From: Chytridium lagenaria
Taxonomy: Eukaryota; Chytridiomycota; Chytridiomycetes; Chytridiales; Chytridiaceae
Assembly: GCA_025449115.1 (NCBI GenBank)
Contig: JAHLKC010000150.1
Span: forward strand, 1-64,000
Length of the DNA stretch: 64,000 bases
Direction: 5' to 3'
The position numbers and the translations under genes are program-made. This document shows positions 27,167 through 63,991 of the stretch, piece after piece; position 1 is the stretch's first letter, and the number at the start of each line of letters is the position of its first letter. The notes under the pieces are model-generated. The model was not told the DNA's origin and made no database searches. It saw only the letters and a program-made list of their open reading frames with translations.

Positions 27167-30100
27167 ATGACGCCAACGGCTGAGGTTTCCCGCCCTTTGG
27201 ACTCCAATGCAGGTGCTGCCGCACCAGGGGTACCAAGGCCGCAAGGTGCATTTATGAACGCTGGAAACAAGCGCGTGTAAGAATCCCTCCTGTGCCTTTT
27301 TTTCTGAGAGCGTGTATGCCAAAGACGACTTATAAAGACGATCGTAAACTAACCTCCACTTATTCACAGTGCCTGTGGAGTGTGCAGGAGTAAAAAGTAC
27401 AAGTGTGATGGCACTCTTCCAGGATGCGCAAAGCGTCTTTCGTCGCAAGATGTCTCTGCGGTCCCTCAAAAGCAGCTAGCACCAAAGTCTGACCGTTTCT
27501 CACAACATCAACATTCACATCCTCGACGTCCTGATTTCCAATTTTACCAACATCACCGGCACACATCACCGTCATCTGGAACTACGTTAGAATTACCAAC
27601 TGTAGTTTATCAGCGCTCAAGTCTATCTCCAATTGCTGCTTCTACCTTTGATCACAATTGCTTTTCGAACGAACGCAGCGTTATTAATGAAACGTCCCAA
27701 GTTCTACAATAAGCGAACCCCCTTATTCATCCTCCCTTCATCTATCCAAACGCTTAAAACAAAATTCGTCTTTACCACCAACGCCTCCCCTCTTCAGCGA
27801 CACACGTTCAAATAACTTCTTCCTCCCCACTCCTACCTTTCGCGATTCTCTCAACCCTCTCACCTCACTCCTCGATACCATCAGCATTTCCTTTGCATTA
27901 GAAGACGAAAGCGTCAAAACCAAGCAGCGCTGTCGAATAAGTGGAGGCGACGTGACTGTGCCTCAAAGAGTAGATGAGGGGGAGATTTGGATCGAAAGGA
28001 TGATGCTTGAGAAATATTTCAAGTGCCATTCGCATTTTGCGTATGAAGTGGTTCATCGACGGACTTTTTTGGAGACGCTGCCTTTACAGCCTGCTGTGCT
28101 CAGGTCAGTTTGCATTTGATGTATCATCAATTTTATTAAAGAAAGAAAGGATGGGAATTTAATTTTTTTTTTCTTAAAAAAGATATGCAATGTGTGCTTT
28201 GGGTGGGAAGCTTTCGATTCCTCCGGCACCGCATGCAGTAGTTCGGTCGTATTTTGAGAAGGCGAGAGCGCTAATCTCCGATTGCATGGAGGATTGTACC
28301 TTGGAGCACGTCCAGGCTTGTTTTCTGATGGCAGTTTGTGGTTCCAGTAGGTGTCCTTTTTTTTGAAATATGGACGGCGTTTCCCGTTTCTCTACCTTAA
28401 TTATTGTGCCTTTTGTTTTGTACACAGCGTCACTGACCTTTGTATAGCACTGGACTATATTGGAATCTCCTTTGCAATGCTCGGGCTAGCAGCTCGCATG
28501 GTAAGGCTTACAGACTCGAAACATTAATTTCTAGCTATCATTTATATATATCTATATGATTTACTAAGATTGTTGAATCTTGTGTAGGCAGAATATATGA
28601 GGCTTTACCAAGATCCTGACGACGATGATACACTTCGCAACACACTAACGTGGGAGGAAAAGGAGGCTAGGAGGAGATGCTTCTGGTCGATATATTTTTG
28701 TGACAAGAGTGAGAATTGCGTTTCTCAATTACTTCCTCAATGAAGTAAATTACTAACTTTACTCTATTTGCAGTGGTATGTGTCATGTCGGGACTGCCTG
28801 GTTTTTTTCCAGACCAACGACTTAACGCTATCACAGTCCAACCTGTTTGCGACAACAGCCTCTTTACAGCCCTTGAACCTCTGCATCTCGGCTTGGAACC
28901 GAAACCATGCCCCGACAGTGCACTAAATCGTTTAAATCAGATTATAGCAGTTGGGAAACGTATTCAAATGGCAGTTGGTTTTAAACCTGCCGAGTCTTTT
29001 GAAACACTCGAGCAGATGCGACCAGAACTTATCGCTTCTGAGGCTGCGCTTACAAATCTGTTTGATGCATTGCCACCGCATTTGCGAAAGGAACCTTCAG
29101 AGCTTTTTATGCATGAAGCCTTTTCTACTGATGAGACGGCGTTTGCGCGGATGGTTGCGAGAGCCGCTCTCGAGGAGCACATGTCTGCCGATCCTGAATC
29201 ACCTGCTGCCGCTATAACAAGAGTCGGTAGAGGTGACGCGTGGGATTATAATTACATTCACGCTTTATACCATGCCCTTATCTGCCTAACACATCGACCG
29301 CGCTTACTTCTCTATGCTGGACTCTACCGCCTCCCTCCACACAATTCTGACGAAGCACGGCTTCTTCAGAGGACTATTGAACGGTCAGAAAAGAGTGCTG
29401 GATTCATCGTTACACTTGCTGAGCGTATTCTTCGTGCAGGAATAGCATTCTCTCAGCACCCAGCAATTCTATTTAATTTGGGTGGGAACTCTACGCCGTC
29501 GTGGGAGAACATCTTCTCTGCATTATCTCAGACTTCAATATTGCTAGGATTGGACGACGGGACTTACAATAATAATCCTTACGCTCCTCACGTTAATGGT
29601 GTCACACCTCCGCCTTCTATCGCACCATGTCAAGTCTACACATCACACTCTCACCCCTCAGTTCAACGACCTAAGAGGACCAAGATCGCGGAGGTGGATT
29701 CTCACCCATTTTTCGGGTTTGCCATGATGATCTCTGCCATGACGCTTGCGGATCTTGCTGCGTTGCAACGGCGTCTACATCCGCCGGACTCGCCTGCTCT
29801 CTCGTCATACCTCGTGCATTGTCACAGAGCCATCAAGTTGATTCAACGGTATTTGAAGAGCGTTACAGTGTTTTGGCATTATACAGATGATTATCTTGAT
29901 GGTGCGGCTGAGCTTTTGGACTCGCTTGTTGGGTTGGGAAGAATGGTGGTGGAGGTCGAGAAGAGTATGGTGATGGGGATGGCTATGGAGGAGGGAACGG
30001 ATATGGAGGCGCTGGAGGCGCTGGTGGGGTGGCGGTGGTGGCGCGGGTGTGGTGTTTCCATCTCCAGCTTCCGCTATGACGTCGCCGGTTGAGGAGAGGA

Positions 30101-30448
30101 GAGCAGATGTAGCGCCGTCTACGGCGACGAAAGCATCTTGTAGACTCAAAGGAAGCATGATAGGCTTGGGGCTTACATGGTGTCTGATGAAGGGAGATTG
30201 GGAGATTCTGGATTTTTGAACCAACGCCTTGGACAGTTGAACGAGCGAGGTGCGGGAGGTTCAGGGAGTTCATCTGTAAGGGATGGTCATTTGAGGCGGC
30301 AAGAAGGAGAAGGGCTGCGGCTACGGGTGGTGATGTCGCTGGAGAAGCTGAGTTTATGGCATCGCTCGGCCTTAATGGGGATGGTGTTGGCGAGTATTTT
30401 AGTGGGATGACAAATTTGGACGCGCTTATTCGTGAGGTGTTAAAATAA
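27167..30448 (+). CDS. zinc-cluster transcription factor 1 (four-Cys cluster, fungal-specific TF domain)
   Basis: ATG 27167. Exon 1 ends at 27276 and splices in phase 2 to 27370, giving VA then the cluster CGVCRSKKYKCDGTLPGC followed by AKR: four cysteines, no fifth or sixth. A Ser/Pro-rich linker slips frame near 27690. The middle domain has IWIERMMLEKYFKCH, FAYEVVHRRTFLE, RYAMCALGG and EEKEARRRCFWSIYFCDK, the typical fungal TF segment, and then a long helical part with HALICLTHRPRLLLYAGLYR. The frame slips again near 30030; the natural end is probably 30448 (EYFSGMTNLDALIREVLK) rather than 30092. It is the longest and most divergent member of the array. Expected to be a nuclear DNA-binding regulator; target genes are unknown. 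Confidence 0.7.
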
Positions 30449-30740
30449 TGGCACCCGCTTTTGTTAATAGGATTATAATGGTGTTGATGCAGTAATATTG
30501 TGTGCTTGAGCATTTTACATGCTTCAAGTAATTTCTCTACGTAATTTTAATCTTTTATGTGTTTTACTTCGGCTTACCTCATGAGAAACTTAGTTGATTT
30601 TGGTGACTGGCATGAGTCGGCAGTAGATTTGTTCTACTATTTTGTCACCCGATACATAAATCGAAGAGTCATATAAAATCAGGAGAAGTGTGAAAGGGTA
30701 TATCAGGCCGTTAATTCAACATTGATTACTCTAGAGAATA
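30449..30740. other. short spacer downstream of ZnTF-1
   Basis: AT-rich 3' flank; could also hold a missing 3' exon of the histone-fold-like frame at 30741. No independent gene seen. Confidence 0.3.
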
Positions 30741-30926
30741 TCATACATGGATTAGTGAATGATTGAGCTTGGTAGTGGCAGTAAGCTTCTCTTGAATGAT
30801 AACCCTGACATAGGCAGCTGTCAATTTGAGGCGAGTGGAGGTAACTCTTGTAGTGTCGTCAGAATCATCGGAATAGCCATGCATCAACCTCCATAGCAAA
30901 CGTGTCAGACGCGCTAGTCTTTTTGG
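30741..30926 (-). CDS. possible small histone-fold protein (CENP-X/MHF2-like fragment)
   Basis: A short minus frame, read from an internal ATG (MPKRLARLTRLLWRLMHG). It contains DDTTRVTSTRLKLTAAYVRV followed by IIQEKL, which resembles the CENP-X pattern of an acidic loop, d-T-R-(V/I)-S, then a helix ending in a Y-(V/L)-R-.-(F/I)-(V/I)-.-E-A motif. A CENP-X protein should continue with a second helix pair ending in a PQLLLDF-like tail. That is absent here, so the 3' exon or part of the protein is missing. The similarity is by eye on about 40 residues and may be chance. It lies on the strand opposite to the flanking regulators. Confidence 0.28.
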   Translation of the reverse strand, partial: PKRLARLTRLLWRLMHGYSDDSDDTTRVTSTRLKLTAAYVRVIIQEKLTATTKLNHSLIHV

Positions 30927-31364
30927 CATGGCCAAAATAGATTTAGTCAAAGAACACGTTGAAGCATCAGTCTGTTGTTGACGTCGCAGAGGCTCTGCAG
31001 ACGATAAAAGTAGTGTAAGATTGCCGCACCTTTAATAACTTATAACTTCACTCTCTTTATTCATGTATTTTTTGGTAGTAATTGCCTTCATGCCTCTGAA
31101 CTTTTTCCCTTCCCTTTTTCATTGCACTTGGCGATGCTCGTGCGAAACAAAACCGTCAATTTGCTTGTTTTGTGGAAGTTACAGGCCGCATACCCGAATC
31201 AACGTCTCCCATAGAGCCAACCGAATGTGGTACGTTTCCCGATACTCGGATCCCAGAACGGATTTTTTATTTTGAGGACTGGGGAAAAAAAAAATTAATA
31301 GCACCAGAAAGGATTGCATTTCCGTTTCCGCATTTTCAACAACCCCCAACTCCGGCCTCAAGAC
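30927..31364. other. spacer between ZnTF-1 and ZnTF-2
   Basis: No convincing frame; should contain the ZnTF-2 promoter. Confidence 0.35.
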
Positions 31365-33428
31365 ATGCCGAATAGATACAAGCTGGATGCCCCTGTTCAA
31401 ACGGCGTCGTCGTCTCTTGTTGTATCATTCTACGGACCGAATCCAACAAAGACGTAAGTATTGCTCTGCTTCAGAGGCAGAGAGAAATCGGTGGGGGGTG
31501 TGAAGATTGTTGAGGCAGTGTGGGAGGATCAGCAGTCGTTCATTTTCTTAACTTTACTTCCAAAACTGCAGGTCTTGCGACTTTTGTAGATCCCGCAAGA
31601 GAAAGTGTAATGGATCTGTGCGGGAATGTGGAAAGTTCAAAGAGGGAGCCTCTGTGCCGGCGTCCGATCCCGGTTCCAGTAAAGCGAGAAGGGTGGCGTC
31701 ACCATCTTCATCATCCTCGCTTCCCGGAAAAAAGAGGAAAAGATCCCTCACAGCAACCACTGTGGAGTCCGATTTGATTCAAATATCGCCTTCAGCGTAT
31801 GACGACGAACTGAGTTTTCCGAGGGAGCAAAGCTATAGTCTTGCAGAACCTAGTCTTGACCCGTTGATTCTATTCTTGGATAGTATCGGTGTATACGACT
31901 ATGTTTTTGACACCAAAGAGTCATATATCGGATTTAGAAAACCATCACGTGAGGAGGATCATGTTATCGAGCGTTTCTGCACATCATCGCATTTTTACCC
32001 CTTTGAAGTCTTCAAGAGGTTCTCTCTTGGTCATCAAATGGAAACTATGCCACATATGTTGAGGTAACTATCACAATGTTCTGGTAGATAACTGATGATT
32101 TATTCAAGGTATGCATTTTACGCATACTGCTGCCGTATGTCGGTTCCGCCTGCGCCCACACAAATTTCAGAAAAGTTTTACACATTGGCCAAGGAGTCTA
32201 TGAATTGGTATAAGTCAATGAATGGTGACAGTGGCTTACAAAAATCTTACAGGTGCATGGACAATCCAAGCTTGACTTCGTTGCAAGCACTCATGTTGAT
32301 GAACATAACCGCTGCATGTGGGTAACATTTAAATGTTGTGGGTGTTTGACAGTTTCAAGGTTTTGGTGATCATCCTGGCCGATACAAGTATCGCAATATG
32401 GCTTTTAGAATGGTATTTTGAAAGCTTGGTTTAATTAATATTATCTCTCCCTTTTTTTTCTTTCTTTTTCATTCACTCATACTTCATAAATCTTTTTAAG
32501 GCTTCGTATTTGAGGCTGGATGCTCCTTGCCTCTTGTATTTGCCATCAGGTAAAGAGCTTACCGAATTCGAGAAAGACGCACGAGACCGATGTTGGAGAA
32601 CTTGTATTCTCACTGACAATAGTAAGCATTCTGCTTTCTTCGTCTATTTGACAGCACTGTAAAGCTAATCTTTTGTTTTCCTACTTAATAGTACACGCTA
32701 CAATATCTGGTCACCCGCGGTTTTTTCATTACTCGTTTTCGCAAGTCGCAAGCGCGGGCTTTTTTCAGTACATTCCTCCAAATGATCTCGGCAAAGAGTC
32801 TTTGATGTACTACCTTACTACCCTCAGCGAAGTGATGTTCTCCATTAAGGAGTGTGTCTCTCTACCCTTGTCGACGGCAGAAGAAGTGGAAAGCTATCGT
32901 GTTAGAATAAGAGAAACCGAAGGAAGGCTTACAGAATGGAAATTCTCTCTTCCACCGTCATTTGATGTGGAAGCATCCGAGGCTTGGAGCTCTGTTGAGA
33001 TGATTGGGGATGTTCCTGTGGACGTTGACCGGATCACGATATACCTTGGATACCATGCATGCAATTGTCTCATCTATCGCTCTCGACTTCTCGTTGTTGA
33101 TTCCTTTGCGGACAACCAACCTCGATCCGCAGCCAGGTCCTTTGACGTTGCTTTCCGGTCAGCCGTCCTTATTGCAATGACGGCGAAGAAGACCCTTTCT
33201 TTAAAGTGTTTTCGTAGCACGCTATTTCCGCTTTCGGGATATTGTGTCCTTATCTCGGGACTCGTCTTGTGCAATATTTGCAGTCAGTTTTCTGACAGCG
33301 TGCAGGAGGAAGAGATAAGGGCTCTTGTTATGGTTGAGATGGAGTTTCTGAAAAAGATGTCAGAGTTTTGGCTCATGTCGAAACCTTGGCTGGATTTGTT
33401 GGAGGCTGAATTTCAACATATTTTATAA
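31365..33428 (+). CDS. zinc-cluster transcription factor 2 (four-Cys cluster)
   Basis: ATG 31365 (MPNRYKLDAPVQTASSS). Exon 1 ends at 31453 and splices in phase 2 to 31572, giving TS then CDFCRSRKRKCNGSVREC followed by GKF: four cysteines only. A nuclear-type basic stretch GKKRKRS follows. The middle domain opens LDPLILFLDSIGVYDYVFD, then PHMLR (exon end 32063), RYAFYAYCCRMS, and WCMDNPSL after removal of a 45-nt intron. NPSLTSLQALMLM, RDRCWRTCILTDN and FQYIPPNDLGKES follow, ending LLEAEFQHIL at 33428. Other introns lie at about 32325-32500 and 32622-32691. Frames are largely intact. This is the best-preserved member for defining the family. Confidence 0.75.
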
Positions 33429-33648
33429 TCGCATCTGTTTTATTATATATTTTTTCTCAAATCCATTCAATCACTTTACACAACATTATTAAAAACTTTA
33501 TCTTGATTTCCTATCTAATTATGTTTTTGGTCGATTGTAAATGGCGAAAAGAAGAGGCATGGTTTGGCTTTCTGGGATGGATGTAAACTCTTAAAATCGA
33601 ACAACGAATTCAAACCACCCGGGTTGCTGTAGTTACCTATTTATATAT

Positions 33649-35616
33649 TTAAACAGTCATCCTAGTGCCTGAGTTTATTGCAAACTCTATAGCGCGCTCA
33701 TCATTGGGCCTCAGCGTTGCCCTCTCCTTTTGTAATATCCCCATATACAGTTTCGCAATCAACCAAAACACCGAAAGTCTTTGTAGAAACTCATCGAGCA
33801 GCACAAACACCTCATCTATCTCCCTCCTCTTCTCAGCGTCATTCATGTCTTTCCAAAGTTCACATAAAAATAATCCCGCCATCAATACACTCTGTCCCAT
33901 GAACGGATGCAGATTGATATGCCGATGCGAAACAATATCCCTTGACACCCTCCCTATAATCACCGCAGAAGCAGAAGCATGCACCCGACATACGTCCGCA
34001 AACCGACCCAATGACGCTGCCTGTCGTATCATAACCCGTCCCAGTAAACACATAGCCCCATGATACCCCAACAACAACGTCGCCCGAGTCCCACAAGCAT
34101 CCAGTGACGGTGACGAATTATCCGCTGAAAAAGTCGCCCCTCTCCAAAAGTTCGGTTCATCAATGTTCAAGTTTGGAGGTAATCCGTTCCTCCATGCATG
34201 CAACATCCCAAGAGCTGTCAGCACGTCATTGTCTTTAGGATCTTGGGCAAGGAGACTTTGATGGCTGAACTTTTCATCGAGTTGCCAAATATTCAACAAG
34301 ACATAACTCAACGTTGTGATATAATCGACGAGAGCTGTACGCGATGTGTCGTTGGGAGGGAGAAAGCGGTAAAATTGGAGATTTGGAATCATAACGCGGG
34401 TCTGGCTGAAACGTTTAACGTGAGGAGTACCCCAAGAAAAGACTAACGAGATAATTTGAGTTTTTTCGTTTTCGTACTGCAAGGGAGAACGTACCATTAT
34501 CTAGAAAGAGACAAGTTCTCCAACAAAGATCTCGAACCGTTCGTTCTTGGTATGTTGGAACTCTGTCTGGTTCTCCAGGGAACTGTAGCAGCATTGGTGT
34601 ATCCATTTTCATTAAAGCGGCCTGCCAAAAAAACAATCCGGGTTAGTAAGAGAAACGATAAAAGAGGCAAAGGCGGTTTTGGCCACATACCAATCTGAAA
34701 GCCATATCCTTATACGACATTCTCGCGGCATGATCCCCGAAGCCTAAAAAGTAAAAGCATTTAGAACAAATATGTAAGAAAAAGAAAGAGGAAAAAATCA
34801 AGTAAGATCATACTCGTTGCGCAGAAAGAAAGCAATATCAATGCCTGCAAGCTCTCCAGGGTGGGATGGTCGATGCACCACGGTATCAACTTTCGTGCAA
34901 GACTGTAATATCTCGCAGAGATAGGATGTGGTGCTTTCGGAGTCGAAAAATAGTCCACAATACGTACACAAAGTTAACCTTTGAATCTATTAATTCAAAA
35001 ATGTACACATAACAATCCCCACCTCAAGACCTGCGGCATAGCGGAAAGAGCAGAATAATCAGTGATTCTTGTAAAGACATCAAACGAGAACCCTTGCGTC
35101 GAATTATGATAATTTCGAACCATCAGTACATCCTCGTAAGATGGTACCGACGGTTCTCCACATCCTGTCAGCGGTGGTTCAAAATCTAATATTTGAATGT
35201 TGCCAAGAAAGACAGATATCGGATCCAAGAACTTTGATATCAACGGGGAGGTTATGGTGGATGAAGCGGGGCTGATGACGACGCTGATGGAGGTGCTGAG
35301 GGTTCTCGTTGCTCTAGGTTCGGTCGTTGGGTATTGGGGTTATACGGAAAGAAGGTTGCAGGGCGAGCACGTCTTGGGGCATTGGTTGCTCCATAGTATT
35401 CACACTTCTTCAGCTTGCCGTTACATCGTCTCTTGCGGCGTTTGCAGTAATCGCATGCTCTGTAAAAGTATTCATTGAATGCGGGGTTATGCTTGTTTTT
35501 TAAGTTATGGGTAGTTTTATTTACGCTATCAGACTGGGTATTGACGGACGAGCTCTTCCAACGTTATTTTGCGCTAAGGCATCAGCAGCTCGACTCCATG
35601 GATCACCGTCGTCCAT
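33649..35616 (-). CDS. zinc-cluster transcription factor 3 (four-Cys cluster)
   Basis: ATG 35616 (MDDGDPWSRAADALA). Exon 1 ends SLIA at a GTAAAT donor and joins in phase 2 to the cluster CDYCKRRKRRCNGKLKKC followed by EYY: four cysteines only. A frame slip around 35250-35290 leads into ISKFLDPISVFLGNIQILDF, SMPQVLR-type exon end, SLARKLIPWCIDHPTLESLQ, RDLCWRTCLFLDN and FYRFLPPNDTSRTALVDYIT. The C-terminal exon runs to 33649. The exon boundaries fall at the same motif positions as in ZnTF-2 and ZnTF-6, indicating recent common origin. First of four consecutive minus-strand members. Confidence 0.7.
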
Positions 35617-35853
35617 ACGAAAGCCGACACCTCCCTTCCTCGAACTCGAACAATCAAATTATGGGGCGCCCTCAAATAAACTTTTGTAGCTGGGACAAAA
35701 TTTGGGAGTATTATGTATCCGGATTTATCACGTCATTTCACGTGGTTTAAAACCTTCCGATAAGATAAAATTAAACCTTAACATGCAACACAGCTCTTGG
35801 GAGACCGTGGATTCCCAAATGAAAATTATTACTACTAATTAAATGCTGGATGA

Positions 35854-37642
35854 TCAACCGAGATCCAGTACCCGTTTTACTTCGGCGTCAAACCTGTTTA
35901 CTTCCATTCGGACGCCTTTCCATATCCCACTCAGGCGAGAAAACTCCATCAGATCTCTTAACCGCCTCTTCGCCAGTCCCCTACTCTCCACATCGCCATA
36001 CACCCCGCTCATGATCCCGTCCAAAATCCACCTCCCAACACCAAATTGAGCAATAGTCATGATAGGGTGGTAGTCAAATGTGGCACGTGATTCTTGCTGC
36101 TCCTTCAAAATATCCCTTGCCGCTTCTGCTATCGCAATGGCGGATATTTCTGACTTCACTTCGAATTCTTGGGCAATCGTAAATGTGGATGGATGGAGAG
36201 TCATGCGCGTCCTGCAGAGCCTGGTCGCGCTGCCAATGAGTGTCATGATGCCGTGAAATCCAATGTAGATAGATAGCCTATAGCTATCATACGCGTGCGT
36301 CACATCACCGTCATTTGATTCAAGGGCACCGTTATCATGACGGTCCAACGTACACCATCTCCAAAACCGTTTATCGTCATCACAATGAAGGGAGTGTGGA
36401 AGAGTCGACTTCCAAGCTTCATACATCTCCATGGCGGTTCGTACATGGTTAAAAAAAATGTCGCCGTCAGCGGTCTGATCGTTGGAAGTCGGCGCTTGGA
36501 CGCTCCGTCGGATCTCAAAAGAGGTGGATTGGATGTGACATAAGATATGGGAAAATGTGGTCATATACCGAAAGAGTGAAGCAGAGTCGGTTTCTTCCAG
36601 TCGCGTAGGTGTTAGGTAACGAGGATGTAGGATGGGGAAGATATCGTCTTTGCCATGTTTAAAATAGCGAGAAAGGATTCCTAGACGAGATAAAGACGCT
36701 ATCATGTTGTCGGAAAAGATGCAATGGCTCCAAAGGATGTCACGATCATCGCAGTCGGCTTCGGTTAAAATTCTAAGAGAAGGGAGCTGCAAGAGCGTTT
36801 CCGTGTCGAGTTTAAGAAGTGCAGCCTATTCAGAAGGTTTTTTGTAACTATGAGTCGATGAATGCATGTCAAAAGAGCCTTATAGAAATTGAAACTTACC
36901 ATCCGACAAGCCGCATCACCTATGACGGAAAGAGAAACAAAGTCTCCAAGCGCTTAAACAAAATCTATTATTTACACCTGACCATCTTATCCTACAGCAA
37001 GAGAAAAATCGACAATACGCAACTCACCTAATCCAAAGACACTCAACAACAATAATCCCCTCAAGCAAGCCAGCGACGGTGTATCAAAACAATCTGTCAT
37101 GGCTTCCCTCGCCGCTGCAAAACATTTTCTCCCCACCACTTCTGGTGCAGGAGGTCTTGAAAAATGTGAGCAAAACGCCAATGTCGCAAGCCTGCACCAA
37201 AAGTGCGTCAATATAATTCTCTTTCAAGGAGAACCTACCGAAGTATATGTGGATAATCATTCAACCTATCCACCACATCCCTCCTCGAAATCAAACCCAT
37301 ATCATATCCTTGTGTTGTAGTGACGTACTTGTTCACAATCCAAACCCCGAAATCCCGTCCAATCCCTCCTCGTTTCGTTGTCAAAGCTGTCTCCCCCACA
37401 GGATATAGCATATAAAACGGGTCTTGAAGGTCCAGTTGATCCATCAATTTACGAGTGGGTCATTTAGTGTTTTGGGTATTAAGGCATGTGCAAGGGATGG
37501 GGAAGAGGTTGTGATGGATGTATGGGAATAGGAGCATTGACGGCATTCTGCAAGGCTACCGTTGCAGCTTACTCTTCTTTGTTGGCATAAGGGGGCATGC
37601 TGAATGGGCTTTGTTGCGGAATCGAGACGGTCCACGGATCAT
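35854..37642 (-). CDS. zinc-cluster transcription factor 4 (five-Cys cluster, frame slip in the cluster)
   Basis: A tentative start is ATG 37642 (MIRGPSRFRNKAHSA). The cluster reads C-PL-C-QQRRVS-C-NGSLAE-C-RQ-C followed by SYSH, if one base of the G5 run at 37591-37595 is discounted. It therefore keeps a fifth cysteine, unlike its neighbours, but no sixth. Downstream are DQLDLQDPFYMLYPVGE, DYPHILR (exon end), FCSHFSRPPAPEVVG, TPSLACLRGLLLLS, RDILWSHCIFSDN and a long last exon 35854-36792 ending VKRVLDLG. The basic residues between Cys2 and Cys3 are weaker (QQRRVS) than in the others, so DNA binding may differ. No upstream phase-2 intron was found. Confidence 0.62.
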
Positions 37643-37918
37643 GTGCAGAAGGATGACGAGCGAAGCATTGAGTTTATTTATTTTCAAGCCTGTGATTTCA
37701 TGTGCTACGGGGTTTTTTGCTTAACAGCATTCCCAAACAAAGCACGAACCACAGAGTCCGACCTGATTATAGAATAAAGCAACGAACAACTGCCAACACA
37801 CCCCAAAAATAAATAGGAACCAGGTTTACTTACAAGTTACGGGTATGTATGGCCATATATTCTCCATCATCTATTTAAATCCACCCCAAATATATATACA
37901 AATTAATAACATGATAAT

Positions 37919-39838
37919 TCACAAACCCCAAAGTTGAGCTCTTAAACCACTCACTCTTTCCCGGTCTCCTCTTTCCTCAAACTCTCCCTCAAAAACCTTT
38001 AATCCAACTTTCACTATCCTCCACTCTTCACACAATCCCTTCATAAACACCATCACATCTCCCAACACTCTTATCACCTCTTTTCGTTTCCCCTCGCTCC
38101 CCTCTCCACCTCCCACCCCAACTCCATCTCCCTTTCGCGCCTCAAACAACCCCTCCCCTAACCACCGTCCGGCCGCAAACATCGCAATCGCCATAATCGG
38201 ATGAAACTCCATCCGTCCATACCGTGCCGCAACACCCCCAACAGCCCAAGCAGCACTGTCCGCAACCCCCCGCACATCTCCCCCTCTCGCGGTCATAAAA
38301 ATAAACGGTTTCTCGAGCACCCCCACAAAAGGCTCTCTCGACAATTCCTCACAGCATTCCCCAAGTGACATTGTGCAGCGAGGTACATAAGTTTCAGACT
38401 AACCCGATAACATGTATCCCCGTTAAAATGATACCCATTCGACCCCACAAACCTAAATGGCGTTATATCCTCGCTTTTTTGATGAAGGATACTGAGCGGC
38501 ACCGTCGTCTCCCATTCTTCAAGCATGGCCTGCGCGGTTCGTAGAGCCTCCCAAAACCTTCTCACATTGGAGGTGTCGGCGTGCTTCACCTCTTGAATCT
38601 CTGCGATAGTTCGTCGGATTTTGTACAGCGCATGGCTTAACGTCGATAAGTGATGAACAAAGGCGGTACGACTTTCGTCGTCACATGATATATGTGTAAA
38701 ATACTGCGGATTCAACATTGGTCGAGCGTCATTCCCGCCATATTGGAAGAAACGAGGAAGGAGACCGGATCGAATCGTGGCGATCAAAACATTGTCGTAG
38801 AGGACGCAGACGCGCCAGAGTCTATCACGGATTGCCATTTCTTTTGGAGTTGGGATGTTGCCAGAGGGCAGACGTAAGAGTTCCGGAGTGTCGAGTTTTA
38901 AAAGAGATGCCTTTGTTTGTCTCGTTAACCGATGTTGAAGATGTAGAAAGAACAACAAAATATAGGGGGAGGCAGAGCGAAAATTGATGACTATAAAACA
39001 AAGCGCGACTTTTCAGACTTAAGACCTACCATTCGGAACGCCATATCTGCGAATGCGATGCAAGCGCCATGATCACCAAGCGCTTCAAAACAGGTTAAAA
39101 ACTCATAGACTCAATGTGATAAAAGGTAGACGTGAAAAGTTCACTTACCCAACCCACAAAAAACCAACAACAACAAAGCCTTTAAATAATTTAATGACGG
39201 CACATCAATACAAAGATGTGCCAATTCCCTTGCCGACGAATAATAACTTCTAGTAACCATATCCGGCGCAGAGGGTTTCGCAAAGTGTGAGCAAAACGCA
39301 CATATCGATAGTCTATCCGTATAAGTATTCATAATAAGCTCCTATGTTTTTTACCTCAATATATCAGGATAATCGTGCAGAGACTCCAACACGGTATGCC
39401 TATCGATAACTTCCATATCGTACCCGCTTGTTGTAAGCAAATATGATTTCACTACAACGTCATCGGCTGTCGAACGGTGCGCCGATTTCGCAAGATACCA
39501 GGATGTATGTTTCAGCGGAACGGTGTCAAGGGGATCCCAGATGCTTATTTGATCCATAAGCATGACGAGCGAATCCAGAGGTGTCAGTGATGTAGAGGGT
39601 AAAGGGAGGAGATGACGAAGATGAAGCGAGGCAGGTCTCGATCGAGGAGAAACATTTGTAGGCATCCAGTCAAAGTTTCTCCAACATCCCTCAAGCTTTC
39701 CGTTGCATTTCCGTTTCCGGCCTCGACAGAATGAGCAGGCGAGTCTACATGGGGTTAGTGGGAGAGGAGGATGGTTGGTTTGGGTTACCGTTCTGTTGTG
39801 ACGACGACGTCAAGGGTGGCGGCAGATCGAGTTGGCAT
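37919..39838 (-). CDS. zinc-cluster transcription factor 5 (four-Cys cluster)
   Basis: ATG 39838 (MPTRSAATLDVVVTTE). A 44-nt intron (39745-39788) joins in phase 2 to RLA then CSFCRGRKRKCNGKLEGC followed by WRN: four cysteines only. Next are LVMLMDQISIWDPLDTV, DYPDILR, FCSHFAKPSAPDMVT, VPSLNYLKALLLLVF and LDTPELLRLPSG with RDRLWRVCVLYDN. A slip at about 38360 joins HLGNAVR to the last segment, FHPIMAIAMFAAGRWLGEG, ending RAQLWGL at 37919. The exon-intron plan matches ZnTF-3 and ZnTF-4. A minus-strand open frame continues to about 40200 upstream, but the clean splice favours the short exon 1. Confidence 0.7.
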
Positions 39839-40356
39839 TGAAGTTCCGGAGTTTTTAAGTCTAAACAGAAAATTTTTCGGGTTGATGAAGTGGGTTTCCA
39901 CAGATCGGGAGCTGGGATATTGATTATTTTCGTTGCCCGTGCAGCACTCAGTGGTTTGGTACACAGTTGTGGTAGGGGGGTAATGAAGTAGTTGATGTGG
40001 ACCTCAATCGCAAAGTAAAACGTGTGTCTCAGGCAGTCTTCTCTCAAGCAAGGCCGTTGTTCGAGTCGATGATTCCGTAATTTTACCAGCCAAATCGAAG
40101 CATTGGTTTGTGGAAAATGTTGATTGTGATCGTGAGTCATCTTACTTTTGGAATTCAAGATCCAACTGACTAAACGTTGGGTGCCAAATCGCCGTTGCAA
40201 CCAGGTGGGAAGCGATCCTTCAAAGCCAGTGTTTTGTGTCGGAAAAGATCGAGCAGCTAAACCAGATCTTCATAATTTTATTTATTTCCGTATATATGAA
40301 ATATGCACAATATCAACATAGAAACATTCGCATCTCGTTACAAACCAACCGCTCAT
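39839..40356. other. spacer between ZnTF-5 and ZnTF-6
   Basis: Upstream of ZnTF-5 and downstream of ZnTF-6. A minus frame with an ATG at 40140 is open through part of it but shows no known domain and conflicts with the better ZnTF-5 start; it may be 5' untranslated sequence. Confidence 0.35.
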
Positions 40357-42526
40357 CTAGCTTTCCTCAACGAGTTCCCTCACGTCCCCAACCCCAATAA
40401 CTTCTCTCACCAACCCTCTCAGCTCCCGCTCAAACCTCTCAACACCCCCCGTTGCAACCCTCCAAACCCCCATCACCCTCCTCAAAAATCCAGCCACGCT
40501 CCCAAGATCTTCTAAAACCCCATTCCGACGATGCACTTCCACCGTTTTGATCGCATCACATAGCACCCGTCCAGCATTCATCACACTCAAGCCCATAAAA
40601 TGGATGGATCTCAAAACGCGGAGTCTCGAGAACGCGGCGAGCAAGGAGCGCTATGAATGTTGCGGCATTGTAACCGGTGGTGATGAAATGCTTGGATGCA
40701 AAGGGGAGACGTTGGGCTGCGGTGCTGATGAGACAAAGGAGACCGTGGTATCCGAGAAGTAGGTTTGTGCGATAACTTTCAAACTCTTCACCCCGTTGAC
40801 AAAAGCGTTCATCAGATAGGTTAAAGGAAGGTGGGAGCGTTGCCTTCCATTCACTCAGCATAGAATTTGCGGTCATTAATTCACTCATCATCACGTCAGG
40901 CGAACTCCGGGTATTTGCAATATCGTGAAGGATACATTTCAGACGAAAGACAATATGGGAGAGGGTTGTGACGTAATGGATGAGGGCACGCGGGGAGATG
41001 TCGTTTGGGGGGATGAATGTAAAGTAGGATAGGTTCATGATACGGTAGGAGCGATCAGTGGGTGATGGAAAAATTGAGTGGGAGAGGAATCGCCGCGCAT
41101 AAGGGAGCCTGCCATAAGGTTGTCGTTGTAAACGCAAAGGCGCCAACAGCGGTCGCGGACCTCCATGTCTTCGGCGGTAATTTGTTTGTAGGATGTGGAT
41201 GGGAAACGCAAAAGATCAGGGGTATTGAGGCCTAGAAACGTTGACTTGATTGAGTTGTAGGATCGCGTTGGTGAGTTTAGACTTTTATGAGACAAATGAG
41301 GATGAAGAACCAAGAGAAAATATAGCGAACACGGACAAAATCAAAAAAAGACAAAGCATTATAATCATTTACCATTCTAAACGACATGTCTGAGAACATG
41401 ATACTGGCAGTCACATCTCCAAACCCTGAATCAAAGATTGCATTAAAAATCAATATAGCGATTTAAAAAAGCAACCCACCTGATGCAGAGAATAACAACA
41501 AGATGAGCGCTTGCAAACTCTCCAGAGACGGTTCGTCTATACAAGATGGAACCAGCTCCCTCGCAGATTTGTAATAGCTTTTTGATATAGACCATTGGCG
41601 CAGGTGGATCCGAGAATAAAGAAGAGAAGCAACAAATCGCCAACCTGTCAAAGGAATCAGACTTATCCTCGGAAGTGTGGATATATATACCTCAAAATAT
41701 CCGGGTATACAGGTAATAAGTAAAAACGGTATCCCTCGAAAACACTTCCATATCCAATCCATGTGTGGACAGGCAATATTTTTGGACAACATAGATATCA
41801 TTCTCGTTAATTCTTGGAGCGGTTAGGACGAGCGGGTATTGGGATGGGGAAGTAGCGGTTAGGACATCAAGGTTATCGAGAAAGAGGAGGAGAGGATCAA
41901 GTGATGTGGGGATAAACGAAAAGCATATAGTTGAAGGATTCGAGATGGTTGAGGAGCGACGAGATGAAGGCGGAGGAGAGGGTGGGAGTTCCATGTGACG
42001 GTGTGCGGAAATGTGATATTTATTAAAATAGCATTTCGTAAGAGTTCCGTCACATCGACGCTTTCGCCTTCGACAATAATGGCAGGCGACCGAACTGTTG
42101 TTTTTTTATTAGAGGACAGGAAGGAGGCGTGAAAGCGCGTATATAAATTAAAAAAAAGGACAAAGTTGATGTTAAAACATACCTTCTTACGGGGGATGTC
42201 CGTGACGGTGGAGCGACGGCAGTGGTGTAAGACGGAGCTGCATATGGAAAGGATGAAACAGATCGAGCAGGTGCGTAGGAAGCGGCCTCCTCGATAAAGT
42301 TTAACTTTGCAGACACAACATCGTGCTTATCATGAGGAACAGAAGACGGTGATGATTCCAACTGAAATGATGATGATGATAGTACAGGGAGATGTTCTGC
42401 TTCTTCTCCATCTTCATGATATGACAGACCATCGATATCAGCATCGCTGTCGTCAAAGCCGGATGACGGATCCGGAGATGCCATTTGGGATGAGGGATGA
42501 TGACCCTTGAACCTTGTATTCTCCAT
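40357..42526 (-). CDS. zinc-cluster transcription factor 6 (four-Cys cluster, acidic N-terminus)
   Basis: ATG 42526 (MENTRFKGHHPSSQ). Unlike the others, exon 1 is long (about 115 residues) and acidic/Ser-rich (GFDDSDADIDGLSYHEDGEE), a possible activation region. It splices in phase 2 (AAG|GTATGT) to SSVA then CHYCRRRKRRCDGTLTKC followed by YFN: four cysteines only. The middle domain has SLDPLLLFLDNLDVL, ELVPSCIDEPSLESLQALILL, LNTPDLLRFPS, RDRCWRLCVYNDN and FTFIPPNDISPRALIHYVTT. A slip near 40585 leads into GLSVMNAGRVLCDAIK, ending LVEES at 40357. Confidence 0.7.
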
Positions 42527-43332
42527 CAAATTAGATTAAATTAATTTTTTTTTATTTATTTATTAATAAATAATAATATTTTTTTTTGGATTGATTTATG
42601 GACTTTTACTCCGAAAAGAATTTTTATCTTGATTAAAAGTCATAGTAAATAATAATATGTGCATTATAGAAATAAGGGGACAAAATTAAAGTTAATAATA
42701 GTTAATATATACAATTATTTATAGGTACATGTGTGATCATTTCCATTTTCCGAAGAACCCCTAGTTGTCCAATCAGGAGATCGAGGAGACGAAATTGTGA
42801 CAATTGAGATCCGAGCACTTGGTTCAATTATGTGCTCAACACTCGTGGACATTTGTACACCGCGATAGTGTTTAGGACAAATCCATCCCCAGCGACAACC
42901 GTAACCAAATATCTTTAAAACTGTGTTAGTGCTTAGTGCGCTCCTCAGAACGAAAAGGAACGCTGGGAGGCGGCCATGCTGTTGGCGATCTTGCGACAAC
43001 GGGACTTGCCTCGAGATCTGGAATAAATATAGAAAAGGCGGAAGCGAAGCAGAGGTAGTTTCTCTCACAATTTATTTCATCTTCTATATCCTATGCAGCA
43101 CATTTCTCCTGAGCTCCTCTACCGTCCTCCACTTTGTACACCATAACCTCCTAATAAGGCAAACGGCGAAGGCGCGTGCGAATAAACCGATTCTCGATGC
43201 CTGCTCAAGAAGGTCGTCAAGTAGTTAAACAAGTACCTGTGTACTAATACTAATCAAATGCTGGAGTTTTACTTTTTTCTCTTCCAACTTGTGAACGTGT
43301 AATCCAGTTCAACCAGGTAAAGTGCTGGAAAG
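42527..43332. other. divergent spacer between ZnTF-6 and ZnTF-7
   Basis: Very AT-rich at 42535-42720 with ATTTATTTATTAATAAATAATAAT. A minus frame of 117 codons (42715-43068) is open but lacks an ATG start and any recognised motif; not called. Confidence 0.35.
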
Positions 43333-45964
43333 ATGACACAGAGATTTTGGTTGAATTTTTTTGGTTGGATTCCAGAAACCAAATCCATTCCATGCTTCAC
43401 AATCAGAATGCAGAGGCGACTACAATAAGGAGTTTGAAAGGGCAGCGGTGGAAGCGCAACCTGCTACTGTTACCACAGAAACTTCAACGACCAATGCCAC
43501 CACCACATTGAAAACCACAGCAATGCCCAATGTTTACACTTTCGTCGCTTCTGCATCTCAAACAACTTCACAACTGCCACATTCTCCCACATCGCATCAC
43601 ATTACCAAACAACACATACATTCACGACCTCTTTGGATCCCACTGCTGTACCTTCACATTTCAACGACGACCGTTTATTTTCCGCTGCTGATAGCACAGC
43701 TGTGAGGTCAAAGGAGTCCAACAACTCTAGGAAAACGTGAGTATAGGTCTGACCTCCCGGAGTACCACTATCCCGTAGGGAATTTATCTTGACTAAAGTA
43801 TCCGATTATCTCGGGGATAGAAGGGTAATCCGTGACGCTTTTTGCATTATGGCCACCTTAGACAGTTCCACTATTATATTTGCATCAGAGGAGCATTACC
43901 CGTCAATGTAGTGTTAGCCATACTGGCCATGGAGTTCTTGATGGAAGATTCCAGCCATTTACTCCGTATTATTTATTGTACAATTGGAGCCGTTATATAT
44001 TGCGTATATTACTTTTTGCATTTCTTACCATTTACCATGCGCTTTTTTATTCACAATCCACCCTTTCCTTTTTTAATAAATAGATCTTGTGATGACTGCC
44101 GTTTCCACAAGAGACGATGCGACGGTTCCCGGCGGAAATGCTCCCGCTATGTCGGCAAAAGTTCCAAGCCACAAACCTCCCTTAATAAGCAGACACGGAA
44201 ACGGAAGTCCGTCACAACAGCAACAACAGCATCAGCGACTTCACTGTCGTCTTCTGAACCTCCTTCCAACTTGAATTTGCCCGAAAATCACAAAGCCAGG
44301 AATAGGCCGTTCGAAAACATCTTCATCGACAGCACCTTTGCAGCACCCACCACCCCACCGTCGACGGATTCCACAGCATCCTTGTCCCCGTATTTCGTTC
44401 GAGGCTCATTGGATCCTCTCGTCTATTATCTAGACGACATCAAACACGCCTTCGACTACATGCTCGATCCGTCAATAGAATCATGGGACTTTTTACCATC
44501 GTCCGACCCAAGAGGAATCTGCGATATTCAACGCACCATCGCCGTCAAATTCCTTGAATCCGGCTGCGAGTATCCGTTTGACGTGATGGCTGATCTGGCT
44601 CTTCCTCATGAATTGGAGAGGGCAAGCCCGTTTATAAGGTTTGCCGTAACGGCGTTTGCGGGAGGTTTAGTCGACAGAAGATACCGGATTCGATTGCTAG
44701 GTCGCTTTTTGTTAAGGCGAGGGAGGCGGTGATGTTATGTGTGGATCGGCCGTCTTTAGAGTCTTTGCAAATGTTGCTTTTGCTTTCAGCTTGCTCTTCA
44801 TGTGAGTGTTTGGTCTTGTCCTTTATGACTGCTATGGCTGGTTAAAGATTTAATTAAAAAAGCTTACTGACTACTGTTACTGTAACCTCAATTCCATATT
44901 TCGTGAAACAGCTTACGGGAATTTGAATGCCCTTTATTATTTAACAGGAATGGCTTTTCGAATGGTAGCGTAATTATTCTTACTCTGTAACTAGTACTTA
45001 ACATTTATTCTGAAAACAGCTGGATTACATTTCTACAGTTGCCGCGCCCAACCAGCATTTACATACACTATTTACACATAACTCGCAAAACTATGAGCGT
45101 TGGCTAAGGTGCCTGCATGTCTGTCTATATGCGGATAATGGTGAGATGAAGTGTTTTTGTTTGAATTATTTACTTTTCTAACGAAGTATTGTTCTAGTAC
45201 AATCTATATCTACGGGAAAACCTCGTTTTTTTGAAAACCGCACTCGCCCCTCCCACCACGAAATTATGACTCTCGCTAACACCTACTCCCATCCCCCCAT
45301 CATCTTTCTCCTCTCCCCTGTCTCCGATATCCTCCACACCATCTACACACTCTCCATCCCTCTCTCCACAAACCTCCATGAACTCCGCCTCCAAAACGTC
45401 CAACTCATCGCCGCTCAATTCCTCCTCGAATCTTGGGCAACTCAACTTCCACCCTCCCACACCTTCTCCGACACCCACGCGTATCAAGATGACAGAGGTC
45501 ACCCCGTCGACTGGAATCGCACAACCATGTATCTGGTGTTTTGGCTAGGCGTGTGCATGGCCAATCGCCCCATCCTTGAATACGCGATCCGTACTAATGA
45601 AACAACGTTACCCAGTCTATTACGGTGTTTTGAAAAGGCCGAGGAAGCTTCGACTCGGATTGCTGAAATTGCCATAGCTGTTAGGGATATGCGCGGGGTT
45701 GTTTTTTTCCCGATCATAGGGTATGCGTTTTATTGGGCCGGGATGGTATTTTTGGATTTGGCGAGGATTGGGAGGGGTGAGAGGGGCAGTGAGAGGGGCA
45801 GTGAGAGGGTTGAATGGTGCTGTAGGGGTCTGGGATGTATGATTGAGATGTGGCCTATTGCGGGGATGTGGATGAGGGAATTGAGGGATGCGGTGGGACG
45901 TGTACCTATTGTTAATGGGGAGAGTGAGAATACCTCGTCGCATTATCACCCGACGTGTATATAA
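43333..45964 (+). CDS. zinc-cluster transcription factor 7 (four-Cys cluster)
   Basis: A tentative start is ATG 43333 (MTQRFWLNF), which reaches the Thr/Ser-rich N-terminal frame (TVTTETSTTNATTTLKTTA) if one T of the T7 run is discounted. A further slip near 43600 leads to SKESNNSRKT, a GTGAGT donor at about 43738, and a phase-2 splice to TS then CDDCRFHKRRCDGSRRKC followed by SRY: four cysteines only. Then GSLDPLVYYLDDIKHAFDYM, CEYPFDVMADLALPHELE and, after a slip near 44670, DRPSLESLQMLLLLSACSS. YERWLRCLHVCLYADN and a last exon ending SSHYHPTCI at 45964 complete it. That exon has a short GS repeat, RGERGSERGSER. The intron before the cluster is long (about 345 nt). Confidence 0.65.
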
Positions 45965-46135
45965 TATGAGAAATGGAAAAGCACAATGCACTTTCCTTGC
46001 ATGCCATCTTTTCTCTATAGCCTTTGAGGCGTTCTTTTTTAAGTTTACTCAGTCTTGGCCACCTGTTTCGACCCCTTATTTCTTGCCATGTGAGAAGGGT
46101 GTGACGAAAGGATTCTTGGACAAGTTTCACCTCAA

Positions 46136-48172
46136 ATGATGATGGCCGAACTCTTGGGCGACACCTCTTTGCCATCATCATCACACCTCGTCGTCCGCAC
46201 ACACACGACAACACCTGTCATCAAAGATCGAGAGAAAGTGTAAGTTTCTCTTTCCATCTTCGTCTTTGATTAACGGCCTCAGCGCTTGTGCCGTCTGTCG
46301 ATCCCGTAAAGTCAAATGTGATGGCACACAATCTCGATGTCTTAAAAAGCCAGGCGCATCATCCGGTCCATTTGGCCGAGGTACTTTGAATCTATTTCTT
46401 TCCAACACTTTCTGACGAGGTTTACGTTAGCTCAAATGATGGTCAATTCCCCTCTCTTTCCCGCCTTTGTCTCTGCATGGGACACCATCGCATCCACACC
46501 ACCACTCCCCATTCACACCCCTCGGTACAAAGACCCCCTCCATATTGGTGACGCCTCGTCGCTCTGGATAGATCGAGCCGTTGTAGAGAAATTCTCGTAT
46601 AGGCCTGAAATGTTTCCGTTTGAGGTTGTAGATCGACGAGGGTTTTTGGAACGTTTTGATGAACAACCACCGGATTTAAGGTAACTTTTTTTTGAATGGA
46701 TGATTTTGCTTACATGCTCAGATCGGCTATGTGTGCTTTTGCAGCACAGATGTCGATGCCTAGAGGTAGGGTTTTTTTATTGCAGTCGACTTTGTTACTG
46801 ACTTGGTTCGTTTCTTTTTTTCTGTTAAAGCGCCGGATGCGGTTATACGGAAATATCAAGAACAAGCTCGTCAACTAAGCATGAATTCATTCGACCGCCC
46901 AAATGTACCCTCGTTGCAAGCATTCCTTATCATGGCGTTAACGTCAATAGGTAAAATCATTTTCTCTCTCACTTTATCTTAGTATTTTTTATAGGAATGG
47001 GTAAAATCGTGCCTGGGTTCATGTTTTTTGGTATGGCGACACGGATGGTGAGAGCGTACGATGCAATTTTTTTTCTTCCTTGCTAATCAACGTATATTTA
47101 GTTTGATCTATTGAATATCCCACTTGCATTAAACGATGGGGATATGCTTGAGGATGAGGCGGCGAAAGCGGCTGCTGCAGAACATGCCAGGATAGCGTCT
47201 GTTTGCTTCATGTTTGACAGAAGTGAGTCTGCTCCTCGTTTCTCTCGCCCATCTCACCTTGATCTCCTAATTGCTGACGTTTGTAAATAAAAAGCCGCCG
47301 CCGCCATCACTGGTCGAAAAGCCTACATGAAAGCCGAACTCTCTGATTTCAATACCGCCTCCATGCTCGAATCCACTCTTTTATCAACCGACACAACCTC
47401 CCACATCACGCTAGAATGATGGCTACGGCTGTGGGAAATTGCAGAACTCCTCTACACCATTAAACAAGAATCCGAAATTCCTCTCAACACCCTCCAAGAC
47501 TACTATGAACGTAAAGAGCGACTTCTTCTAATTGAAAGTAAACTTGAGGATTGGAAAACATTTCTCCCACCAATGTTGAGTTTTGATAAGTTCACAGAGG
47601 GGTTTAGCCGGGAAAGCTTTTCTGGGGATTTTGCATTGGGGCAGGTGTTTTTCTTTGCAATCTATCATCTTTGCATGTGTTTATTGCATCGACCCAGGAT
47701 CAGGCTGAAGAGGCTTCTTCAAAAGCAAAATCCCGTTCTTTCCTCAAACCCTGACCATGAAATCAACCGCCGTCTCGTTGCATCCTGTTCCAAAGCCTAC
47801 ACATCCGCGCAATCACTCCAATTCCTCCTCCTCGTCTTCAAGACACAGCAAATCACGCCTTTTGATCAAGACCCCATTATAGGCTTCTGCATCCTCGTGT
47901 CAAGTCTCACGTTTATTGAGTTGATCCTGGTGACTGATTTGAACATCGTGGAAGAAGGGGTGCGGAATTTGAATGAGGGTGTGATGGTGTTTGAGGCGAT
48001 TTCGACGTACCTTGGGTTGGACCCTGAATGGTATCGGGTGTTGAGGGAGATTGTAGATGGGAATGATGGGAGTGAGGAGGCATTTGTGGGGTTGCTTGAG
48101 CACTTGGAGGTGCCGTATACGGATATTATGAAGTTGTTGTTGCATGGGAATTATACGGCGTTTGCGATATGA
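46136..48172 (+). CDS. zinc-cluster transcription factor 8 (four-Cys cluster, in-frame stop)
   Basis: Three ATG codons in a row at 46136. Exon 1 ends IKDREKV and splices in phase 2 to VA then CAVCRSRKVKCDGTQSRC followed by LKK: four cysteines only. A second short intron leads to AQMMVNSPLFPAFVSAW and WIDRAVVEKFSYRPEMFPFEVVD. RPNVPSLQAFLIMALTS and HARIASVCFMFDR follow. The next exon carries an in-frame TGA at 47418-47420 between SHITLE and WLRLWEIAELLYTIK, with identical frame on both sides. The C-terminal part (MLSFDKFTEGF to NYTAFAI) is intact. If the TGA is real the protein loses its second half. Last member of the array. Confidence 0.65.
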
Positions 48173-62500: not shown

Positions 62501-63991
62501 AAGACTCAGATTCTGAAGCTCGTGAACTTTACACCGGAAGTTGAACTTATCACTAGAGTTCGAATTATTTGACCACCTTGAATAAAAACTCATTTCTATC
62601 CAGCCCGGCAGAGTAAAGTAAATCTTGTCAGGAAGTTCACCCGAAGCGTCATCACTGAACAATGGATCCCACATATCGGCCTTTGTATCAAAATCCCCAG
62701 TTTTTTCGATCATTCAGCTCATAACCACCCGATAAGTCAGCACCCGATCCGTAAAGAGCATTTCCAGTCGGTGGATTCGTGTTGTTATCTTTTGCAGTGA
62801 ATTGAAACAAGGGAACTGCGTAAAGCGGAGGTTTGCAAAGGCTGACGAGATCACACCCGATTCCATTATCAATCATCCTCTGTGTTGTAAGACGGCATAA
62901 TTTACGGTCAACCTCAAATAAACCCGGGCTGGGAGTAATGACGACAACGCAAAGACCCGTTCTTGCAAGATCTCTGTCAATAAAATGCTTGTCGAAGGGG
63001 TTTAGGGCCAAATTGACAGCCTCAAGAATGTTTCCTTCGGCTGCAGGAGAGTTTGCTCCAGACAATGTCGTTGATCCATCATCACTGAATCTCTGAAGAA
63101 CGTGCTTTTGGAAAGACAATAAACTCCTTTTTAAGAGGGATAAGAACGGATGACCAGTCGGAACGGGTCTCCCAATCGACAACAACACGATAAAAGTCTC
63201 GGTAGTATCGTCCAAAGGCGTCAATACATATGGGACTTTCACCATTATCTTCTCCAATGTTCCCATAGGCTTCTTTAAAAGAAAGTCCGTGCGAAAAGCA
63301 CGATGGAAACAACGTGGTTTGTTCCAGTCCTCTTCCAACAGTCAAAGAGTTCAGGCAAAAACCCATTAAACGCCACTTCTCAAAATACAGTTCGCCATCA
63401 TCGTCAAACTCCCACATCTCTTTACTCATCTGAATAAAGATGAAGTACTTTGCTGATTCTGATCTGTAAATTGTCCTGGTGTTTTCTGTGATGTAGGCAC
63501 AAGGCACCTGACACATAGTAAGGTTTGGAACGAAGTTAACGAAACACCTACACTTCTTCCTCCCGTGACCAGTTCCTTAACCTGAGCCCTGACACCCAAC
63601 GACGTGACTTTTTTACCGACGTGTATACATGTATTGTTTAAACTTGTTTTTAACTTCCACATATCTGCCCGACCGATGTATTGATCTCTGAAAGACAGTT
63701 CCATAAAATCTGCTGATATTGTGGACTTCTCGACCTAACAGTGATGCATTACGAAAAAATAAGTCTTAAATCGGAATACCTTTCTAACGGCAACAGTAGT
63801 TCGGGGGAGAAGATCGAAGGTAGCGGCAATACTTTGCGTGATAGATATCTACTGACAAATGGTGAGACTAAGGGGATGCCATCCAACAGTACCTGCAGTT
63901 GAGGTTGCTTTGTACTTATATCCGGATCTATCGCGGTCACTTGAACGATCAAGCGCTTACCCTTGCCGGTTTCCGAGTCATTCTTTCCCAT
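59531..63991 (-). CDS. IML1: Iml1/DEPDC5, GATOR1 (SEACIT) complex subunit
   Basis: Catalytic-scaffold subunit of the GTPase-activating complex that restrains TORC1 on amino-acid starvation, at the vacuole or lysosome. ATG 63991 ([13 protein letters not shown]); upstream codons are open for the last 9 bases of the window. In order: [39 protein letters not shown] with [45 protein letters not shown] then [25 protein letters not shown], and [19 protein letters not shown]. The DEP domain is [20 protein letters not shown] to [10 protein letters not shown] (about 60570-60800). The C-terminal domain after a last intron (about 60227-60311) has [20 protein letters not shown] and [20 protein letters not shown]. 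Frame slips lie at 62701-62706 (T6 run), about 63108 and about 59740. They interrupt conserved sequence on both sides, so assembly error is the simplest reading. Confidence 0.92.

Follow-up and report, generated by a model that had tools for sequence, protein, structure and literature searches.

Can the zinc-cluster domain of a fungal regulator persist once its second half is gone? Zn2Cys6 proteins form a large family of regulators that is defined by six cysteines. The question is raised by a 64,000-nucleotide stretch of Chytridium lagenaria DNA (assembly GCA_025449115.1, contig JAHLKC010000150.1, positions 1 to 64,000 of the forward strand), referred to here as the window, which contains an array of eight regulator genes, W1 to W8. 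Seven of these carry the start of the motif, C-x2-C-x6-C-x6-C (Cys1 to Cys4), and are missing Cys5 and Cys6, an arrangement termed here the half cluster. The genes are best explained as predicted transcription factors whose Gal4-type domain ends after its first half, with the four cysteines and the predicted DNA-facing segment kept. A probability of roughly 0.6 is given to this reading, which is drawn from sequence.

The first-pass annotation of the window had described the four-cysteine motif in seven of the eight members, and a six-frame translation with pattern search bears this out. Cys1 is located at 27374 (+), 31576 (+), 35455 (-), 39737 (-), 42084 (-), 44088 (+), and 46287 (+). All seven half clusters possess a basic segment between Cys2 and Cys3. 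The residues originally listed at the Cys5 place (Cys4+3), namely R, F, Y, N, N, Y, and K, are exact, and the reported absence of a later cysteine pair also holds, with no cysteine within 30 residues after Cys4 in any of the seven (the nearest later cysteine in W6 is at +36). The six-cysteine zinc-cluster pattern has no match in the six frames of the whole window. The strict form C-x2-C-x4-[KR][KR]-C-[DN]-G-x4-C is matched five times in the window versus zero times in 100 Markov resamplings of it; W1 and W8 fall outside this form, as a different residue precedes the lysine at Cys3. An eighth four-cysteine match, at 19288 (-), has x10 spacing and lacks the basic segment, and is taken as chance.

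Half clusters are also found elsewhere in the C. lagenaria genome. A whole-genome search with a consensus-like peptide returned 15 places: the window has seven, contig C118 has five, contigs C5 and C7 have one each, and the last is a six-cysteine gene on contig C65. The genome total is 14 half-cluster genes: the seven of the window (contig C150), a five-gene second array on C118 (A1 to A5), and the singles on C5 and C7. Two additional peptide searches of the genome gave no other half cluster. Beside these 14 genes, 21 distinct Cys3-Cys6 stretches of the six-cysteine type are read in the fetched genome loci, and both counts are lower bounds. A genome search with the Pfam Zn_clus profile at a loose limit gave 43 places, which include every half cluster but W3 (13 of 14). 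In all 13, the PF00172 match stops at profile position 20-24 of 39; a short match alone is not diagnostic, as some other genes, including six-cysteine ones, reach only position 18-28.

Five gene models were scanned against Pfam. At the PF00172 cut-off of 21 bits, W1 (21.9) and A2 (21.2) score above, and W3 (16.6), W2 (15.7), and C5 (14.1) score below. The matched positions end at 20-22 of 39 in all five, those of W1 being 1-21. The regulator body PF04082 (fungal_trans) is above its cut-off in two of the five, W1 (2e-22) and W2 (4.9e-10). Among deposited proteins, precomputed PF04082 matches are present in P0001, P0011, and P0012 and absent in P0002, P0003, and P0004. P0003 and P0004 both belong to gene W2, and P0011 belongs to gene W1.

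Relatives in other species came from three whole-protein database searches, not from the motif, with ~7,990 candidates scored in each. Four domains were found in three deposited proteins: HDU96_008739 and HDU96_004641 of Phlyctochytrium bullatum, and HDU97_005687 of P. planicorne, which has two. All four keep Cys1 to Cys4 and are without Cys5 and Cys6. The first-pass annotation had raised the possibility of six-cysteine homologues in sister species; the relatives found have four cysteines. C. lagenaria and both Phlyctochytrium species are placed in the Chytridiaceae by NCBI taxonomy. The four-cysteine variant is real and conserved in three species. Further matches, P0005 to P0010, are weaker (4.8e-11 to 4.1e-6); PF00172 is present in four of these six, and P0006 has six cysteines. 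The P. planicorne protein (P0002) is 1260 residues long with two half clusters, and it probably represents two tandem genes that were merged during annotation, so this species may also have tandem copies.

A tree was made from the draft gene models and two six-cysteine outgroups. W1, A5, and P. bullatum HDU96_004641 group together with support of 100/99, and W2, A4, P. bullatum HDU96_008739, and both P. planicorne domains with support of 99/98. As these orthologue groups cross genera, the half cluster was already present in two or more gene lines when the genera diverged. Between the window and C118, W1 pairs with A5, W2 with A4, W5 with A2, and W6 with A1, all with starred support, and the W3/A3 pairing is weak (81/68). 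The second array thus appears to be an ancient copy of the first. It lies within positions 1-40000 of C118 (loci L045-L047 and L050), and its members pair by sequence with the window genes. A body exon is located at C118 381-887, at the contig start, where a sixth array gene may be cut.

Conservation is concentrated in the half cluster itself. Across the 18 domains (14 from C. lagenaria and four from Phlyctochytrium), mean pairwise identity is 0.561 for the block that starts two residues ahead of Cys1 and ends at Cys4, falls to 0.114 in the following 15 columns, and is 0.105 beyond, where W8 is left out because its frame stops there (136 of 153 pairs). Cys1 to Cys4, the lysine that corresponds to Lys18 of Gal4, and the glycine after Cys3 are invariant in 18/18 domains, and the residues around the Lys18 equivalent remain basic. 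The loop between Cys3 and Cys4 has a signature of its own. Proline precedes Cys4 in 5/18 half clusters versus 20/21 six-cysteine-type stretches of the same genome, and glycine follows Cys3 in 18/18 versus 15/21; the 21 comparison stretches were selected for Cys3-Cys6, not Cys1-Cys2, and the Fisher tests treat paralogues as independent. Asp lies between Cys3 and Cys4 in 11/18 half clusters, with Asn in the rest. In the Zn2Cys6 family, the Asp and Pro between Cys3 and Cys4 are described as conserved in the available text of PMC7295025. With proline mostly lost and glycine fixed, the kept half has itself changed, as would be expected if the loop no longer links two halves.

How might a half cluster work? 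In Gal4, Cys1 to Cys4 hold the first zinc, and Cys1, Cys4, Cys5, and Cys6 hold the second. Removal of Cys5 and Cys6 would therefore leave one complete four-cysteine site together with the DNA-contacting segment. The proposed ancestor is a six-cysteine cluster that lost its second half. Cys1 to Cys4 would then bind one zinc in place of the textbook two, the invariant lysine would contact DNA, and the basic segment would enter the major groove. Dimerization of the body, or the basic linker that follows Cys4, would compensate for any affinity lost with the second half. One zinc would be sufficient on this proposal, with DNA bound by the half cluster. The fuller claim, a mononuclear Zn1Cys4 DNA-binding domain that was reduced from Zn2Cys6 in the Chytridiaceae and multiplied in tandem arrays, with the second zinc and half of the domain dispensable in nature, is put at slightly better than even odds.

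The strongest competitor accepts the four-cysteine site and denies it DNA. The half cluster could be a zinc-stabilized fold that serves protein contacts or nuclear import, with the regulators acting via partners. The basic stretch alone could serve as a nuclear signal, and Pho7, a six-cysteine protein, is nonfunctional once its last cysteine pair is mutated (excerpts of PMC5559640). This alternative is unlikely, as contact or import alone would not obviously need a Lys18 equivalent that is invariant in 18/18 domains and has basic neighbors.

A second zinc might still be bound, with ligands supplied by a dimer partner or by distant Cys or His residues of the body. Gal4-type proteins bind DNA as dimers (PMC5771398, as excerpted), and cysteines do occur in the regulator bodies. 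However, the region after Cys4 has no conserved Cys or His; neither occurs within 30 residues in 9/18 domains, and those of the other 9/18 are scattered. Nor is there any cysteine ahead of the cluster in P0001 (207 residues), P0012 (22), or P0004 (31). A retained second zinc is accordingly judged improbable, and the domain that ends after its first half is preferred.

Decay of the family, with loss beginning in the second half and the first half now a relic, has an actual example in W4. Its cluster exon is divided between two frames one base apart. Frame one reads C-PL-M-PTKKSK-L-QR-stop, and the second frame, PLCQQRRVSCNGSLAECRQC, is missing Cys1; a cysteine occupies its Cys5 place but not its Cys6 place. 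The open body frame of W4 has no Pfam match at 0.001. W4 is a decayed copy in which the cysteine pattern is lost, and it stands outside the count of 14. The other genes do not follow it. Four paralogue pairs were compared by proportions of synonymous (pS) and nonsynonymous (pN) differences only, because the synonymous rate dS is near or at saturation. In the 18 codons of the half cluster, pS is 0.71-0.86 and pN is 0.09-0.23; because the motif itself was used to find the C. lagenaria genes, pN inside it is biased low. Over 243 to 400 aligned codons, after body columns below 35% local identity were dropped, pS is 0.71-0.78 and pN is 0.13-0.36. With pN far below pS in both regions, and with invariance over three species where true decay loses the cysteine pattern, a decaying family is very improbable. 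The cysteine at the Cys5 place of W4 (ECRQC) is possibly a trace of a six-cysteine ancestor, or chance.

The remaining question is whether the second half is merely hidden. A splice scan joined each GT or GC donor 1-32 bases past the first base of the Cys4 codon to each AG 35-599 bases downstream, in all 14 genes, and scored a restoration when the join gave Cys4-x2-Cys-x5-12-Cys. Within this range, no GT-AG join restores Cys5 and Cys6 in any of the 14 genes, and the single restoration among GC-donor joins, in C7, runs into a stop. Random downstream DNA gives at least one false restoration in 26/560 trials, so ~0.65 would be expected by chance in 14 genes. The any-frame pattern C-x2-C-x5-12-C occurs four times within 700 bases, in 4/14 genes (W7, A2, A3, and C5), versus 3.42 expected at random. 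From Cys4, the frame is open to an LDPL-like motif in 9/14 genes (W2, W5, W6, W7, A1, A2, A3, C5, and C7), and the draft models put an intron before this motif in the remaining five. No donor is found at a common position after Cys4 in the seven window genes. The deposited W2 protein P0004 has the predicted exon 1-exon 2 joint and reads straight through the linker, in which the draft W2 model had placed an intron that P0004 lacks. An artefact, in which Cys5 and Cys6 lie in a further exon (a possibility raised with the original motif claim) or were removed by sequencing errors, is hardly credible: six-frame reading is blind to introns, introns do interrupt some zinc clusters of this genome, e.g., on contig C164, and an uncounted gene on contig C8 has a C-x2-C-x6-C in another frame downstream, but no GT-AG join of the scan restored the pair, any-frame patterns are at the chance level, and the deposited P. 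bullatum, P. planicorne, and P0004 proteins read alike. The first-pass proposal of a distinct four-cysteine variant is thus supported by the 18 domains in three species, the low pN versus pS, the changed loop, and the absence of any sign of a hidden second half.

The C8 gene (contig C8 424801-425650, loci L071 and L073) reads C-x2-C-x6-C-x6-C at C8:424917 with no in-frame Cys5. The other-frame C-x2-C-x6-C begins 143 bases after Cys1, and one restoration with a non-consensus GC donor is found. Its AG is at -3, not -4, and a body-like match to P0002 is located at C8:426464 (0.005). This gene may carry a fifteenth half cluster, or it may be a six-cysteine gene with an unusual intron; it is kept out of the 14. 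A candidate on contig C23 proved on reading not to be of the half-cluster kind. On contig C76 (L042, Cys1 at locus position 1507), a zinc-cluster frame has Cys1 to Cys3 only, CEACRLRKQRCDGSFPNVKN, and an intron before Cys4 is possible.

Several points weigh against the preferred reading. Six-cysteine orthologues may exist beyond the ~7,990 candidates scored per search. A single origin of all half clusters has support of only 72/55, and the W1 line may stand apart. The deposited W1 protein P0011 is partial, covers the body, and begins after the half-cluster exon. PF04082 is below its cut-off in A2 (0.0013) and W3 (0.024) and is absent in C5. For a 50-residue W2 piece modeled with the seven window members, AlphaFold2 gives a mean predicted local distance difference test score (pLDDT) of 68, rising to ~80 in the first 20 residues. 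Foldseek matched this piece to no PDB structure; this outcome is neither for nor against a zinc-cluster fold. PDB sequence matches to Cep3, HAP1/CYP1, and GAL4 are weak (best E 0.048), and an unrelated subtilisin is among the 12. Lastly, the C311A-C318A mutant of Pho7, which lacks the last cysteine pair, behaves as a null in the excerpts of PMC5559640, which means that some compensation would be needed for a half cluster to work.

The features of the array are collected below. An AG in one phase before Cys1, the predicted acceptor, is present in 14/14 half-cluster genes, which suggests an intron directly before Cys1 in all 14; the deposited model agrees for W2, additional AGs lie near in W3 and A4, and the contexts are weak in A2 and A3.

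Coordinates of the half clusters and regulator bodies of W1 to W8 in the window
Feature	Coordinates	Strand	Remarks
W1 (ZnTF-1) half-cluster exon	27370..27585	+	Cys1-Cys4 27374-27427; exon end is a draft prediction
W1 long 3' regulator-body exon	28837..30092	+	Draft model, 5' edge uncertain; W1 model matches PF04082
W2 exon 1	31365..31453	+	Ends GPNPTKT directly before the cluster; same in deposited P0004
W2 exon 2, half cluster continuing to LDPL motif	31572..32063	+	Cys1-Cys4 31576-31629; open frame, P0004
W2 3' regulator-body exon	32692..33428	+	PF04082 match of W2 model; P0003
W3 half cluster, Cys1-Cys4	35402..35455	-	Pattern search, splice scan
W3 3' regulator-body exon	33649..34442	-	Draft
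W4 decayed cluster remnant	37534..37602	-	Frames offset by one base
W4 regulator-body reading frame, still open	35854..36825	-	Open-frame reading
W5 half cluster, Cys1-Cys4	39684..39737	-	Pattern search, splice scan
W5 regulator-body exon	38449..38910	-	Draft
W6 half cluster, Cys1-Cys4	42031..42084	-	Pattern search, splice scan
W6 regulator-body exon	40567..41108	-	Draft
W7 half cluster, Cys1-Cys4	44088..44141	+	Pattern search, splice scan
W7 regulator-body exon	45198..45923	+	Draft
W8 half cluster, Cys1-Cys4	46287..46340	+	Pattern search, splice scan
W8 regulator-body exon	47445..48172	+	Draft

Other genes are located around the array. An ATP-binding cassette (ABC) transporter gene adjoins it at 21722-25193 (-), and two open frames of this gene match PF00664 and PF00005. 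A homeodomain gene at 8956-9198 (+) and a GATA zinc-finger gene at 52919-53488 (-) flank the region on either side. A signal peptide peptidase (PF04258) is encoded at 56697-57218 (+) and a large DEP-domain protein (PF00610) at 60311-62713 (-).

Should one zinc be enough for the half domain to bind DNA, it would reveal which part of the Gal4 fold recognition needs and would provide a natural DNA-binding module of ~20 residues. Half clusters are also a large share of the zinc-cluster genes seen in the genome searches. No published description of a half zinc cluster was recognized in the open-licence literature searched. A family survey discarded sequences without all six cysteines as false positives (PMC7295025, in the text available), and a four-cysteine variant of this kind would therefore be filtered out by its rule.

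Compared with known zinc clusters (Gal4, HAP1/CYP1, Cep3, and Pho7; PF00172), the half clusters have the same C-x2-C-x6-C-x6-C start and the same basic Cys2-Cys3 segment with a Lys18 equivalent. The cluster is located ahead of the body, and some members have a fungal_trans body. Lys17 and Lys18 of Gal4 contact DNA according to excerpts of PMC3384613 and PMC5559640, and the latter gives Asn at the Lys18 place of Pho7, so the lysine is not universal in the family. In Zn2Cys6 domains, six cysteines bind two metals and two of the cysteines are bridging (excerpted text of PMC7614390). In contrast, Cys5 and Cys6 are missing in 14/14 genes and in 4/4 domains of the other species, and the half clusters are mostly without the proline before Cys4. 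They are classed as a variant derived from Zn2Cys6 and are kept apart from its members, since a search for the six cysteines that define the family found four. At five sites beyond the half-cluster genes, body sequence matches the W1 orthologue P0012: C59 (1.2e-7), C65 (2e-4), and C164, C50, and C8 (1.4e-7 to 2.8e-7). The closest likeness in gene structure is to the six-cysteine genes on C65 and C59, in which an AG precedes Cys1 at the same position and in the same phase (2/13 six-cysteine-type genes looked at; C141 also has an AG there, but its upstream frame is open). Unlike the half-cluster genes, those on C65 and C59 keep all six cysteines.

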